A stretch of 33,859 nt of DNA from a virus: positions 1-33,859 of the IMG/VR virus record IMGVR_UViG_3300027833_000134. One strand, written 5' to 3'. Shown piece by piece: positions 3-12,454 of the stretch; within the stretch, counting starts at the first letter, position 1, and each line of letters begins with the position of its first letter. Below the pieces are notes generated by a model that saw only the letters and a list, made by a program, of their open reading frames with translations, was not told the DNA's origin and made no database searches. Made by a program: the position numbers and the translations under genes.

Positions 3-434
3 ACAGCACAAGATATAAGAGAAATGAATCTCTTTAAGTACTATAGGTTAGTAAGAAAATGGGCTTGTAAAACTTACAACATAACCGACGCTGACCTAGA
101 GTTACTTATATATTTAGATTGTAAAGGTAGGTTTAATAGACAAGATTTTATAAACGGAGTGTACACGATGAGTTGGGACAAAGCTAGATGGGACAGGCTT
201 AGGAAAAACGATTGGATAGAAGTGTGGAGGCATAGAAACAGAACTACTATAAAGTATTCTGTGTTTAAAACTTCTTTTAAATGCTCTCAATTAATAAGTA
301 GGATATATAGAGTACTACTAGGAGAAGAAGATTTACCAACGTCAGAGAGAAGTAAATTTTTTAATAACAAATCATATACAGATAAAGTTTACAACAAAGC
401 TATAGACGATATGATTAAAGACAAAGACAGATAA
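3..434 (+). CDS. Winged-helix-like conserved phage protein, 5' partial
   Basis: The reading frame is open back to the left edge: codons 3-23 read TAQDIRE directly before the ATG at 24. The true start is therefore probably upstream, although ATG 24 (136 aa) is a possible start. The protein is basic and aromatic-rich. A helical run around ITDADLELLIYL is followed by a segment ending WDRLRKNDWIEVW and then RNRTTIKY, which has the look of a helix-turn-helix with a beta wing (MarR-like by pattern only). A DNA-binding role is inference. Its stop is one base short of the next gene's ATG, so it is probably co-transcribed with the HExxH gene and the holin. Confidence 0.6.
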   Translation, partial: TAQDIREMNLFKYYRLVRKWACKTYNITDADLELLIYLDCKGRFNRQDFINGVYTMSWDKARWDRLRKNDWIEVWRHRNRTTIKYSVFKTSFKCSQLISRIYRVLLGEEDLPTSERSKFFNNKSYTDKVYNKAIDDMIKDKDR

Positions 435-435
435 C

Positions 436-804
436 ATGGCATTTAAACTTGGAAGAGAAAAACGAGGTATTAAAAACTCACAGACTACACCTATATTTAG
501 AAAAAAACTAGATAAAGGTATTTTAGGTGAAGCCAATGACGATGGAAGTATATTTATTAGTAAAGATATAAAACCTGGTAGTAAGCAAGAAAAAGAAGTA
601 ATAACCCATGAAAGTAAGCACGCTAGAGATATGAGTGATGGTAAGCTTTCTTATGGTGATGATCACATTAGGTATAATGGTAAAACTTATCATAGAGAAA
701 ATGGTAAGATAAAGTATAATGGAAAGTGGCACGAAGAAGGAAGCAAAGAGTTTCCTTGGGAAAAAGCCGCATATAAAGAATCAGACAAAATTAAAAACAA
801 ATAA
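436..804 (+). CDS. Small HExxH putative metallopeptidase-like protein
   Basis: This 122-aa basic protein carries the zincin signature HESKH at residues 58-62, within VITHESKHARDM. That gives His58 and His62 as possible zinc ligands and Glu59 as possible catalytic base. A downstream PWEKAAY segment puts Glu109 where a third ligand could lie. No signal peptide or membrane segment is visible. The gene starts two bases after the previous stop and ends three bases before the next start, two genes upstream of the holin. From memory, similar short MAFKLG...HExxH proteins occur in other Bacteroidota phages. The substrate is unknown: it could process virion proteins, act in lysis, or be a non-catalytic relic. 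Confidence 0.65.
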   Translation: MAFKLGREKRGIKNSQTTPIFRKKLDKGILGEANDDGSIFISKDIKPGSKQEKEVITHESKHARDMSDGKLSYGDDHIRYNGKTYHRENGKIKYNGKWHEEGSKEFPWEKAAYKESDKIKNK

Positions 805-806
805 CT

Positions 807-1181
807 ATGGCATTCAAAATGAAAGGTAGTTCGTTATACGGATCACCACTAGCTCAAAAAAAAGGTAAAAAAAATAATAATCCTAAAGATTCAGAGGGAA
901 GATCTCAAAACGTAAACGCTAAAGACTATTTAATAGAAGACGTTTCCGAGGTTCAAAAAAACGACAAAGGACTATTTGTTACTGGTCTTGAGGATGGAAA
1001 CTTTAGCAACAACTCAACTCAGGATACTACTTACTTACCTCGTGGTGCTAAACACTGGAGTGGTAAAGATTACAAAAAAGGTGATTATCTAGATGAAACT
1101 GATTTTGAAGAAGGAGATTTAGGAACTGGCTATGACTTTGATAAAAAGAAAATAAGACCATCTAAGAAAAAGAAAAAGTAA
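807..1181 (+). CDS. Lysine-rich small phage protein of unknown function
   Basis: This protein of 124 aa has no domain I recognise. The N-terminus is basic and low in complexity (MAFKMKGSSLYGSP, then a KKGKKNNN run). The middle is acidic (DETDFEEGDLGTG), and the C-terminus is a run of lysines. It opens with MAFK, as does the preceding HExxH protein, and the first 12 bases of the two genes are nearly identical. Its TAA stop shares one base with the holin ATG (TAATG), suggesting translational coupling. The charge pattern suggests a disordered protein that binds DNA or other proteins, but that is inference. Confidence 0.55.
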   Translation: MAFKMKGSSLYGSPLAQKKGKKNNNPKDSEGRSQNVNAKDYLIEDVSEVQKNDKGLFVTGLEDGNFSNNSTQDTTYLPRGAKHWSGKDYKKGDYLDETDFEEGDLGTGYDFDKKKIRPSKKKKK

Positions 1182-1567
1182 TGTTAGGTAAATTACTATC
1201 TGGTGGTGCTACTGAACTCATAAAAAGTGTCGGCGGCGTTATAGACAACTTACATACTTCAAAAGAAGAAAAGCTAGCAGCAGAGCTTAAAATCAAAGAG
1301 ATGGTGATGAGTTACGAAGCGGAGATGCAAAAGCAAGTAACTGAGCGTTGGAAAATGGATATGCAATCCGATTCATGGCTTAGTAAAAACATAAGACCTT
1401 TAGTCTTAATATTCCTAGTGGTATCGACGGTATTATTAATATTTATCGATGCTGGAATTATTAGGTTTGAGGTTAAATCTTCGTGGGTAGATTTATTACA
1501 ATTAGTTTTAATAACAGTTATAGGTGCTTACTTCGGTGGCAGAAGCTTGGAGAAAGTAAAAAAATAA
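1181..1567 (+). CDS. Holin, GTA/3TM-type
   Basis: This 128-aa protein has the layout of the 3TM/GTA holin family. An amphipathic N-terminus (residues 1-22) is followed by a charged helix (about 28-60). The segment WLSKNIRPLVL then leads into a membrane span at about 71-93, and a second span at about 102-119 ends in IGAYFGGRSLEK. The NIRP-before-helix and FGGRSLEK endings are what I recognise of the family. Holins collect in the inner membrane and open it late in infection so that lytic enzymes reach the cell wall. No recognisable endolysin lies beside it here. It starts by TAATG overlap with the previous gene. Confidence 0.8.
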   Translation: MLGKLLSGGATELIKSVGGVIDNLHTSKEEKLAAELKIKEMVMSYEAEMQKQVTERWKMDMQSDSWLSKNIRPLVLIFLVVSTVLLIFIDAGIIRFEVKSSWVDLLQLVLITVIGAYFGGRSLEKVKK

Positions 1568-9226: not shown

Positions 9227-9431
9227 GATATCTATAGGCTCTAACTATAAGAATGACGCCATGCACTATGCCGTGGGGCAAGAAGTGTATGGTGGTCATA
9301 CTATATGCGATATTATAGAAGAAGACGATAAGTTCTCTGTTTACATAAGAAAGGGAAACCAAGTGATACCTTGGAAAGACTTTAACAAAAACATGGCTAT
9401 ATCCGTAGAGTACAACCTAGAGTTTAAATAA
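9210..9431 (+). CDS. Small beta-rich hypothetical protein
   Basis: This 73-aa protein begins MKLIRKISIGSNYKNDAMHYAVGQ and contains alternating strand-like segments (GGHTICDIIEE, KFSVYIRKGNQVIPW). I do not recognise the family. The size and pattern would fit a small beta barrel. The start lies 17 bases inside the upstream gene and the stop overlaps the GroES-like ATG (TAATG), so its expression is tied to both. Confidence 0.5.
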   Translation: MKLIRKISIGSNYKNDAMHYAVGQEVYGGHTICDIIEEDDKFSVYIRKGNQVIPWKDFNKNMAISVEYNLEFK

Positions 9432-10018
9432 TGAAAGGTGTTTATAGCTTTATAATAAAACCAAAAGGAGAAAGATATAACAATACAAAAAAAATAGGTG
9501 ATAAAGAGTTGATACTGAATGCTGAGATATCAAATCACCAATACATAAACAGAGAGGCTATTGTTACAGCTGTTCCTATGGCATACGATACTTATATAAA
9601 TGTTGGTGATACAGTTTTAGTTCATCACAATGTTTTTAGAAGATGGTACAACGTAAGAAAAGAAGAGAAAAATAGTAATAACTATTTTAAAGAAGACACT
9701 TATGTTGTATTTGAAGATCAGATATTCGCTTACAAAAGAAATGATGTCTGGACACCTTTAAAGGGTTATTGTTTTGTGCAGCCTTTAAAAGAGAATAATA
9801 AACTGTTTAATGAGGAAGAACAATTGAGAGGTATTGTTTTGTTTTCAGACGGTACAGTTGATAAAGAAAGTTTAGTTCAATTTAAACCATCATCTAAATT
9901 TGAATTTATTATTGATGGCGAGAGGGTATATCGAGTTAGATCAAATAAAATTACAATTAAATATGAATACCAAGGAAACGAAGAGAAGTATAATCCAAGC
10001 TGGGCAAGTAGCAGTTGA
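9431..10018 (+). CDS. Tandem GroES-like co-chaperonin
   Basis: This 195-aa protein reads as two GroES-like folds in a row. In domain 1 (about 1-107), FIIKPKGER is the first strand and a loop holds the hydrophobic triplet L27-I28-L29, close to where GroES carries IVL for GroEL binding. REAIVTAVP and VGDTVLVHHNVF follow, then EDQIFAYK, where GroES has its ILA strand. In domain 2 (about 112-182), GYCFVQPLK, LRGIVLFSDG, ESLVQFKPSS and YRVRSNKITIKYE follow the same order, but the mobile loop is short. Phage co-chaperonins such as T4 gp31 adapt host GroEL to fold capsid protein, and the location next to packaging and capsid genes fits. The GroES assignment is by pattern only. Confidence 0.65.
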   Translation: MKGVYSFIIKPKGERYNNTKKIGDKELILNAEISNHQYINREAIVTAVPMAYDTYINVGDTVLVHHNVFRRWYNVRKEEKNSNNYFKEDTYVVFEDQIFAYKRNDVWTPLKGYCFVQPLKENNKLFNEEEQLRGIVLFSDGTVDKESLVQFKPSSKFEFIIDGERVYRVRSNKITIKYEYQGNEEKYNPSWASSS

Positions 10019-10238
10019 TGAGTTAATTAAAGTTGCAAAAGAACCTATTGTAGATTCTGACGACGATATATCAGCTGACAGATTAAAAAACGCAGCAGCA
10101 ACTAAAAAACTAGCTATATTCGACGCTTTTGAAATACTTAACAGAATACAAGAAGAAGAAAACTTGCTTGAGGGCAAAGCACCTGAAGAGACAGAGAAAG
10201 AAGCTTTTAAAGGATTCGCAGAAAGTAGATCTAAATAA
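9963..10238 (+). CDS. Probable terminase small subunit
   Basis: I start this gene at ATG 9963 (MNTKETKRSIIQAG, 91 aa); the frame is open further upstream, but that would only lengthen the overlap with the GroES-like gene. The protein is helical: QVAVDELIKVAK, then DRLKNAAATKKLAIFDAFEILNRI and a C-terminal FKGFAESRSK. Small terminase subunits bind the packaging site and regulate the large ATPase. The assignment rests on size, helical content and the one-base TAATG overlap with the large subunit. A clear helix-turn-helix is not visible. It overlaps the upstream gene by 56 bases in another frame. Confidence 0.5.
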   Translation: MNTKETKRSIIQAGQVAVDELIKVAKEPIVDSDDDISADRLKNAAATKKLAIFDAFEILNRIQEEENLLEGKAPEETEKEAFKGFAESRSK

Positions 10239-12454
10239 TGTACAAGCAAAGTTTAGTTGAAATAATAGAACCCATTAAAAAAACAACTGTCACTAGAATG
10301 AACCGTGGTAGTAAATGGAGTTACGGATATAATAAAGAACACGATATTGTTGTAGTTTCTAAAACAGGTAAAATTGGTGATATAATCCAGATACAAGGTT
10401 TAAAAATAGCTTTACCAAAACAACCTAAAGAAATATATAAGCATGAAGACGATATATGGGTTAGACAGGAGTATCCTAAGCAGCTTTCTCGATTAAAGAA
10501 TATATTTGATTGGAGAAGTTACCCGGATGACCAGAAGGATCAGTGGCATGATTATATAGATGAAGAGTTTAAACGCAGGGAAGAGGGTTTTTGGTTTACT
10601 AATAATGGAAAAGCAACGTGGTTGCCAGGAACTCACTACATGTATTTACAATGGAGTAAGATTGACGTAGGTGCTCCAGATTTTAGAGAAGCAAACAGGT
10701 TATTCTTTATATTCTGGGAAGCTTGTAAGGCGGATAAAAGATGTTACGGAATGTGCTACCTTAAAAATAGACGATCTGGATTTTCTTTTATGTCATCAGC
10801 AGAGACGGTTAACTTAGCAACAATGAAAAGTGACAGTAGATACGGTATACTATCTAAGTCAGGTGCGGATGCTAAAAAGATGTTTACCGACAAAGTTGTA
10901 CCTATTAGCGTTAACTATCCTTTCTTTTTCAAACCAATACAAGATGGTATGGATAGGCCGAAAACGGAGCTAGCCTTTAGAGTACCAGCTAGTAGATTTA
11001 CAAGAAAAAAAATAACATCTAACGAGAAGATAGAAGATTTAGCTGGTTTAGATACAACTATAGATTGGAAGAACACTGGGGACAATAGCTATGATGGTGA
11101 AAAATTAGCATTATTAGTACATGATGAAAGTGGTAAGTGGGAAAGACCTGATAATATTTTAAATAACTGGAGGGTTACAAAAACATGTTTACGATTAGGT
11201 AGTAGAATTATTGGTAAATGTATGATGGGATCAACCTCAAACGCATTAGACAAAGGTGGAGACAATTTTAAAAGATTATACAATAGCTCCGATGTCACAG
11301 AGCGAAATAGAAACGGTCAGACTAAGTCTGGTCTCTACTCTCTGTTTATCCCAATGGAATGGAACTATGAAGGCTTTATTGATAAGTACGGAGTTCCTGT
11401 ATTTAATACACCTGATAGGGATGTATTCGACCCACAAGGAGAGTTAATAGATGTAGGTGTAATAGACAACTGGCAAAACGAGGTTGATGGCCTTAAGTCA
11501 GACCAAGATGCTTTAAACGAATTTTATCGTCAGTTTCCAAGAACAACTGAGCACGCGTTTAGAGATGAGAGTAAGAACTCAATATTTAACTTGGTTAAGT
11601 TATACCAACAGATAGATTACAACGAGGGTTTAGGTAACACGTTAGGTTTGACAACTGGAAACTTTCAATGGGTTAACGGTATAAAAGATTCTAAGGTTAT
11701 ATTCTATCCAAACCCACAAGGTAGATTTAAAGTAAGTTGGGTTCCTAAGATGGAGTTGCAAAACAATATTATAGTAAAGCAAGGTATAAGATACCCGGGT
11801 AACGAGCACATGGGTGCTTTTGGTTGTGATAGTTACGATATATCAGGTACGGTAGATGGAGTTGGATCGAAAGGAGCTTTGCATGGTTTAACTAAGTTCA
11901 GCATGGAAGATGCTCCACCAAGCTCTTTCTTTTTAGAATACATAGCTAGACCACAAACAGCAGAGATGTTTTTTGAAGATGTGTTGATGGCTTGTGTGTT
12001 TTACGGAATGCCACTACTATGTGAGAATAACAAACCAAGATTGCTCTATCATTTTAGAAGGCGTGGTTATAGAGGTTTCAGTATGAATAGACCTGATAAA
12101 ACGTGGAACAAACTATCAGTTACAGAAAAAGAAATAGGTGGAATACCTAATTCAAGTGAAGATATAAAACAAGCTCACGCTGCTGCTATAGAGATGTATA
12201 TACAAGAAAAAGTAGGAGAGATATCAGAAGGTAACTTCGGAGATATGTACTTCAATGAAACTTTAAATGATTGGAGTAAGTTCGATATAAATAAGAGAAC
12301 AAAGTTTGATGCAACTATAAGTTCTGGTTTAGCTATAATGGCTTGTAATCGACATTTATATGCACCTAACGCAAAAATAAAAAGAAAAGAAGTGAATATA
12401 AGTATTTCAAGATATAATAACAATGGATCGAATTCAACAATAATTAAACACTAA
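10238..12454 (+). CDS. terL: Terminase large subunit
   Basis: This 738-aa packaging motor protein joins an ATPase to a nuclease. The Walker A is of the deviant type, KNRRSGFS (176-183), with the lysine at the front, much like KSARVGYS of lambda gpA. Walker B is LALLVHDE (Asp296, Glu297), and GSTSNA (331-336) fits the coupling motif. In the RNase H-like nuclease, Asp531 (GCDSYD), Glu596 (LLCENN) and Asp691 (KFDATIS) are spaced as the usual metal-binding acids. It drives DNA into the prohead through the portal and cuts concatemers. The portal gene starts one base after its stop. It is on the long side for a large terminase, with an extended N-terminus. Confidence 0.88.
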   Translation: MYKQSLVEIIEPIKKTTVTRMNRGSKWSYGYNKEHDIVVVSKTGKIGDIIQIQGLKIALPKQPKEIYKHEDDIWVRQEYPKQLSRLKNIFDWRSYPDDQKDQWHDYIDEEFKRREEGFWFTNNGKATWLPGTHYMYLQWSKIDVGAPDFREANRLFFIFWEACKADKRCYGMCYLKNRRSGFSFMSSAETVNLATMKSDSRYGILSKSGADAKKMFTDKVVPISVNYPFFFKPIQDGMDRPKTELAFRVPASRFTRKKITSNEKIEDLAGLDTTIDWKNTGDNSYDGEKLALLVHDESGKWERPDNILNNWRVTKTCLRLGSRIIGKCMMGSTSNALDKGGDNFKRLYNSSDVTERNRNGQTKSGLYSLFIPMEWNYEGFIDKYGVPVFNTPDRDVFDPQGELIDVGVIDNWQNEVDGLKSDQDALNEFYRQFPRTTEHAFRDESKNSIFNLVKLYQQIDYNEGLGNTLGLTTGNFQWVNGIKDSKVIFYPNPQGRFKVSWVPKMELQNNIIVKQGIRYPGNEHMGAFGCDSYDISGTVDGVGSKGALHGLTKFSMEDAPPSSFFLEYIARPQTAEMFFEDVLMACVFYGMPLLCENNKPRLLYHFRRRGYRGFSMNRPDKTWNKLSVTEKEIGGIPNSSEDIKQAHAAAIEMYIQEKVGEISEGNFGDMYFNETLNDWSKFDINKRTKFDATISSGLAIMACNRHLYAPNAKIKRKEVNISISRYNNNGSNSTIIKH

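Follow-up and report, generated by a model that had tools for sequence, protein, structure and literature searches.

A predicted minimal gluzincin-like zinc metallopeptidase sharing an N-terminal tag with late proteins in a clade of marine podovirus-like phages

The zincin gene and the late operon

The window (the whole stretch of DNA analysed, a fragment of 33,859 nt corresponding to a 33.9-kb virus record, G000) comes from a marine podovirus-like phage with relatives among the phages of flavobacteria. An ORF located on the plus strand at 436-804, with ATG as start and TAA as stop codon, encodes a protein of 122 aa that contains the motif HESKH and, downstream, the sequence PWEKAAY. When the sequence was read again, the ORF and both motifs were found at the positions given in the initial annotation. 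This is the only HExxH motif present in the 37 window ORFs of at least 60 aa (12,052 aa). The features considered are the following:

24-434, plus strand: gene upstream of the zincin gene, winged-helix-like by eye; synteny in 122 of 138 loci, mean column identity 86%
436-804, plus strand: predicted minimal gluzincin-like zinc metallopeptidase (zincin), 122 aa; 156-sequence alignment, AlphaFold2 (AF2) model and zincin-only fold matches
436-477, plus strand: N-terminal tag region of the zincin, MAFKLGREKRGIKN, predicted to be disordered yet conserved; pLDDT, residues F3/K4 and presence in other late proteins
607-621, plus strand: HExxH motif HESKH, residues 58-62, within the helix 50-68; H58, E59 and H62 in 156/156 sequences
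754-774, plus strand: PWEKAAY, residues 107-113, with E109 at 760-762; E109 in 156/156 sequences, helix in the model, in register with E113 of IrrE
807-1181, plus strand: tagged Lys-rich protein beginning with MAFKMKGSSLYGSPL, 124 aa, candidate partner or substrate; ORF and tag family
1181-1567, plus strand: holin, 128 aa; phrog_3427, E 9.7e-32
10238-12454, plus strand: terminase large subunit (TerL), used to place the phage; phrog_6681, E 5e-172, and tree

The TerL, portal and virion genes of the window match PHROG head families, and the closest sequenced TerL relatives are those of ctfjg026, a genome from a spring metagenome (64%), the Flavobacterium elemo phages (45%) and the Cellulophaga phages phi38:1/phi46:3 (38%). 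The comparison of 138 zincin loci, many of them too short to show every gene, has revealed the order 24-434 homologue, zincin, holin, g94, GroES-like protein of 195 aa, TerL and portal, with the 24-434 homologue present in 122 loci, the holin in 127, g94 in 128, the GroES-like protein in 129 and TerL in 119. In near-complete genomes, a GroEL-like gene of about 520 aa and an 85-aa GroES, identified by GroEL and Cpn10 matches, precede the 24-434 homologue. In a profile search of the PDB, the 24-434 product itself matched nothing at E values of up to 1, and it showed only weak similarity to DUF7943.

The initial annotation had placed the zincin gene next to the holin gene. The holin is indeed nearby, and it also matched the Pfam model GTA_holin_3TM just below its cut-off (E 4.5e-5, 24.4 bits against 24.8), but it is not the immediate neighbor because the tagged Lys-rich ORF intervenes. 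Directly upstream of TerL, the window contains a 195-aa protein (9431-10018) named "co-chaperonin GroES". This name is probably wrong, since near-complete relatives also have the genuine 85-aa GroES beside GroEL, and the protein could be the terminase small subunit or another head factor. In one related genome (G012, loci L156-L159) TerL was found in two ORFs of 403 and 232 aa, perhaps as a consequence of an insertion or a frameshift.

Conservation and predicted fold of the zincin

The alignment of 156 sequences of the zincin family, with pairwise identities down to 18% and a mean column identity of 33%, has revealed that the only fully invariant columns are H58, E59, H62 and E109, so that the HExxH motif is not a chance occurrence. 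These are the residues whose invariance among homologues had been put forward in the initial annotation as a check of the protease assignment. Residues F3 and K4 were also conserved in more than 90% of the sequences. The differences between the zincin gene and its nearest relative were distributed as 13/10/36 of 120 over the three codon positions, which indicates purifying selection. In viral contigs, 66 relatives were found with a single-sequence query and at least 570 with an alignment query.

No Pfam model reached its cut-off with the zincin or with 30 members of the family. Peptidase_M90 (PF06167) gave 17.3 bits against a cut-off of 26.2, and the 30 members gave no match to the M78 model at E values of 1 or less; M90, M91, eCIS_core and M78 were rejected as the home family, as their matches were either weak, near E 0.003-0.004, or absent. 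The sole PHROG with an appreciable match was the unannotated phrog_16532 (26 of 30 members, best E 1e-5), which is missing from two isolate relatives. Searches with tblastn, carried out with the zincin and a divergent member as queries, gave zero matches in 50,697 phage records, and neither the family nor its N-terminal tag was found described in the literature. The proposal of a new small zincin family is thus borne out by the sub-cut-off Pfam scores, the unannotated PHROG and the empty tblastn searches, and the family is very probably missing from current databases. The only PDB sequence relative of a deeper zincin profile was selecase (E 0.0022), and the best structural matches in BFVD include viral SprT-like models.

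Two AF2 models were obtained from 30 and 102 sequences, with pLDDT values of 77 and 80, respectively. The pLDDT was about 80-90 over residues 21-110 and lower than 50 at residues 1-7 and 10-15. The predicted order of elements is strands, the HExxH helix (50-68), a five-strand insert and a helix (107-120) starting at PWE, and according to both alignment and model the compact domain comprises about residues 18-122. When the model was compared with the PDB, the chains with Z of at least 3 were exclusively zincins, with unrelated folds appearing from Z 2.6. The scores were 6.0 for IrrE/PprI, 5.5 for a mycobacterial regulator, 4.9 for SPRTN, 4.7 for VgrG2b, 4.4 for abylysin, 4.3 for selecase and 4.2 for CapP. 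The first AF2 model gave a similar list that also contained Wss1 (Z 4.4) and ArdC. As the top Z is just 6.0, a middling value obtained with a predicted model, the fold is argued from the gap in Z that separates zincins from unrelated folds and from the fact that the chains above this gap are all zincins.

The superposition on IrrE (3dte) covers 89 residues at 3.5 A, with model residues 11-122 aligned to 35-126. In this register, which was taken from the end-points of the alignment and not from atomic distances, the offset is +24 at the start, where H58/H62 correspond to H82/H86, and +4 at the end, where E109 corresponds to E113. The zinc ligands of IrrE are H82, H86 and E113 (PMC5552922). The model is therefore consistent with H58, H62 and E109 occupying the IrrE zinc ligand positions, and E109, at the start of the helix 107-120, is proposed as the third ligand. 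The zinc-protease layout put forward in the initial annotation agrees with both the invariant residues and the predicted fold, the proximity of the ligands being read from the same alignment end-points. Within the limits of a predicted structure, the zincin fold and the conservation of its active site are well supported by computation, and the 436-804 product is, very probably, a genuine zinc protease of miniature size that would bind zinc and cleave proteins. The biochemical guess of a zinc protease is hence regarded as right. With 122 aa, of which the first 15 or so form a disordered tag, this zincin is among the smallest credible gluzincins.

The N-terminal tag and its phylogenetic range

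The zincin begins with MAFKLG (MAFKLGRE...) and the next gene product with MAFKMKG, and the zincin N-terminus M-A/G-F-K-L-G is a variant of the MAFKMKG tag. Although residues 1-15 are predicted to be disordered, conservation is seen at F3 and K4, a combination that would be expected if the segment were a signal. The pattern M[AGST][FY]K[LMRG] starts 208 other ORFs (155 distinct) in 140 loci, all of them on the zincin strand. When viral contigs were scanned at the DNA level for the MAFKMKG pattern alone, at least 119 stretches were obtained, of which 118 were analysed. Among the matches listed, all 238 tags were located at protein starts and none was internal; the zincin lies within 74 of the 118 stretches and, for 26 of the 43 other records, in another part of the record, so that about 100 of the 118 lie on zincin contigs. 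The invariance of K4 in these pattern-found tags arises by construction, as K4 was fixed in the search pattern. In six near-complete genomes, tags were found on 28 of 258 late-strand ORFs and on none of 136 early-strand ORFs (p 5e-6).

At least 305 distinct tagged proteins were grouped into 135 clusters, mostly mutually unrelated, with one large cluster that was probably merged through low complexity. The tagged proteins are found at window 807-1181, at loci L070, L115, L120, L134 and L172 and at many others, they are rich in lysine (18% K) and they frequently contain SPxK motifs. Known domains were nearly absent from the 135 representatives (one DUF6321 and two weak matches), and their domain content gives no functional clue. 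Codons of the tag vary synonymously, which indicates that the constraint acts on the peptide; a DNA or translation element is disfavored, because both synonymous codons and conservative residue changes vary.

Zincin phages form one clade in the TerL tree (SH-aLRT 99), which comprises hundreds of viral contigs and no record of the 50,697-record phage collection. The zincin is near-universal in this clade, at a fixed place of the late operon; the few rows without zincin inside it are partial stretches, and at least one of these records (L195/G019) encodes the zincin elsewhere. In the sister TerL clade (80 loci), no zincin was found and the tag was present on 0 of 1,614 ORFs, and both are missing from five isolates or named genomes. 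The zincin and the tag were gained on the same branch, or lost outside it. As this is one event on one branch, the link between them is suggestive and confounded with the history of the clade. The tag pattern occurs only once, at the zincin, in the 65-kb genome G004, and one tag match was found in G011, the genome of a tagless fusion of the zincin to PAP2. In seven tagged contigs of at least 40 kb (G015, G020, G021, G024, G041, G048 and G053) the zincin was not seen, and these may be fragments. The scan of contigs from cellular genomes gave one contig with zincin, a 63-kb contig of a Sphingobacteriales MAG (L140, JAAXIF010000025.1). This contig has zincin, holin and TerL, is a relative of the window's phage clade, and is probably a phage contig binned with the MAG.

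The common tag is the unexpected part of these results. It makes the function of the zincin testable, and it predicts which ORFan proteins of the clade share a destination. If the tag served as a signal for packaging, many orphan phage genes would be accounted for and a new peptide would be available to load cargo into phage heads.

Proposed function and comparison with known systems

The initial annotation had considered a lysis factor, a processing protease or a new small zincin family, and had remarked that no endolysin was recognizable. This is true of the window, which is a fragment, but it does not hold for the phages themselves. Six near-complete relatives (57-67 kb) were retrieved, and all of them have an M15 endolysin similar to the ctfjg026 enzyme (E 1e-29 to 2e-36), located at the distal end of the late operon or close to it, past the giant structural genes and beyond the point where the window ends. 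In the two of these genomes scanned with Pfam and PHROGs, the endolysin corresponds to Peptidase_M15_3/phrog_894. The strong form of the lysis proposal, in which the zincin substitutes for the endolysin, was rejected in view of this enzyme in all six near-complete relatives. In the zincin, neither Pfam nor PHROGs gave matches to peptidoglycan-hydrolase domains, no signal peptide or membrane segment was recognized by eye, and the N-terminus is not hydrophobic. The guess of a lysis factor is probably wrong, and a weaker version, in which the zincin and the nearby holin break the envelope by cutting, for instance, an outer-membrane or spanin-like target, is considered improbable in view of the dedicated endolysin, of the lack of an export or membrane segment and of nearest solved relatives that are proteases and not peptidoglycan hydrolases. 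In favor of this version, the holin lies one to a few genes from the zincin in 127 of 138 loci. Sequenced isolates have lysins (M15, amidase or muramidase-like) upstream of TerL, and position alone made the lysis guess reasonable. Two zincin-PAP2 fusions (L127:7998-8858 and L128:4332-5192; PF01569, E 8e-11 and 1e-12), in which the tag has been lost, are also in its favor, together with the free PAP2 genes that other genomes have close to the M15 endolysin. These PAP2-like phosphatase genes of the late operon were observed in G006 (L152:13363-14496), G007 (L160:15949-16764) and G012 (L158:16611-17135).

The main rival, although judged unlikely, would be a protease aimed at the host, either synthesized late or injected, that cuts a host regulator or a defense protein. 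Precedents are the cleavage of repressors by IrrE/ImmA-type zincins and the antirestriction role of ArdC-like ones. The best fold matches are zincins of this kind, cutting regulators or belonging to conflict systems (IrrE/PprI, CapP, the mycobacterial regulator and VgrG2b), ArdC appears in the list of the first AF2 model, a very conserved putative DNA-binding gene (24-434) adjoins the zincin, and an effector role has been put forward for certain phage zincins (PMC5512222, PMC7824862). However, host-directed accessory genes are usually variable, whereas the zincin is near-universal and fixed in the late operon of one clade, and it has a tag common to late proteins. The same tag, common to candidate packaged basic proteins, could instead carry the zincin into the virion for an early action in the next host, such as clearing DNA-bound proteins like SPRTN/Wss1. 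SPRTN is among the better fold matches with both models, and Wss1 with the first one, but no DNA-binding domain was seen in the zincin and the virion location is itself a proposal, and such an early role is quite unlikely. A zincin-fold protein devoid of catalysis, acting as a structural or binding module, is very improbable, as the sole full invariance of E59 and the three predicted ligands in 156 sequences is hard to explain without catalysis.

The late-operon position, the common tag and the common phylogenetic range are well supported by computation, and the common tag suggests that the zincin works on or alongside the tagged proteins and not as a stand-in endolysin. A putative processing protease is the best of the readings offered in the initial annotation. 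It is tentatively proposed here, as a reading that could well be correct, that the zincin is an intracellular protease of the gluzincin type, produced late, which acts on the tagged proteins or together with them. It would be a single-domain minimal gluzincin, with zinc held by H58, H62 and E109 and with E59 as general base, expressed late from an operon that also encodes the GroEL/GroES pair, the holin, the terminase and virion proteins, and cytoplasmic as judged from the absence of an export signal. Lys-rich late proteins would be directed by the tag to one shared site, most likely the assembling head or virion, where the zincin would also go to trim or clear them; both the substrates and the virion location are inferred. 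In some jumbo phages, zincin domains have been proposed to take part in head maturation (PMC7824862). Here the zincin is located outside the head gene cluster, upstream of TerL, and it is absent from the sister clade and from isolates that have the same TerL/portal; as the sister clade builds heads without it, the zincin is not a general head protease. A more specific version of the proposed processing role, possible but doubtful, is that the tag marks unrelated Lys-rich proteins for one destination, probably head packaging and delivery to the next host, where the tagged mini-zincin processes them.

If this were true, the tag and the zincin would be the zinc-protease counterpart of the T4 capsid-targeting sequence and gp21. 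The gp21 prohead protease of T4 is of the serine type, and its gene lies among those of the head. Only the idea of a short N-terminal signal on unrelated packaged proteins together with a phage protease is common to both systems, which differ in tag sequence, fold and genome position, the packaging of tagged proteins being here a proposal. The DNA-protein crosslink proteases SprT/SPRTN and Wss1 have the zincin fold in common with the phage protein (Z 4.9; Wss1 4.4), but the SprT Pfam model did not match it and, in SprT/Wss1, the third ligand is His where the phage family has Glu109. IrrE/PprI and the ImmA-type peptidases (M78, COG2856) gave the top fold score (Z 6.0) and the zinc-ligand register, but the phage zincin is much smaller, its 30 members did not match M78 and no XRE-type repressor partner was recognized. 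For the zincin-like MPTase domains of phage polyvalent proteins, a role in processing packaged or injected proteins has been proposed (PMC5512222). These domains are phage-encoded and contain HExxH and a Glu on the following helix, as the zincin does, but they are part of large multidomain proteins, whereas the zincin is free-standing except in the PAP2 fusions of L127 and L128. Minigluzincins (selecase MJ1213, abylysin and jannalysin; 4qhf, 4jiu and 4jix) are, like the phage zincin, single domains of about 100 residues with strands, an HExxH helix and a Glu-bearing helix; the sequence match is weak, although unique in the PDB (selecase E 0.0022), and the fold scores are Z 4.3-4.4. The minigluzincins are archaeal, whereas the phage zincin adds the N-terminal tag and a conserved inserted beta-sheet (Y73, D75 and R87) between HExxH and E109.
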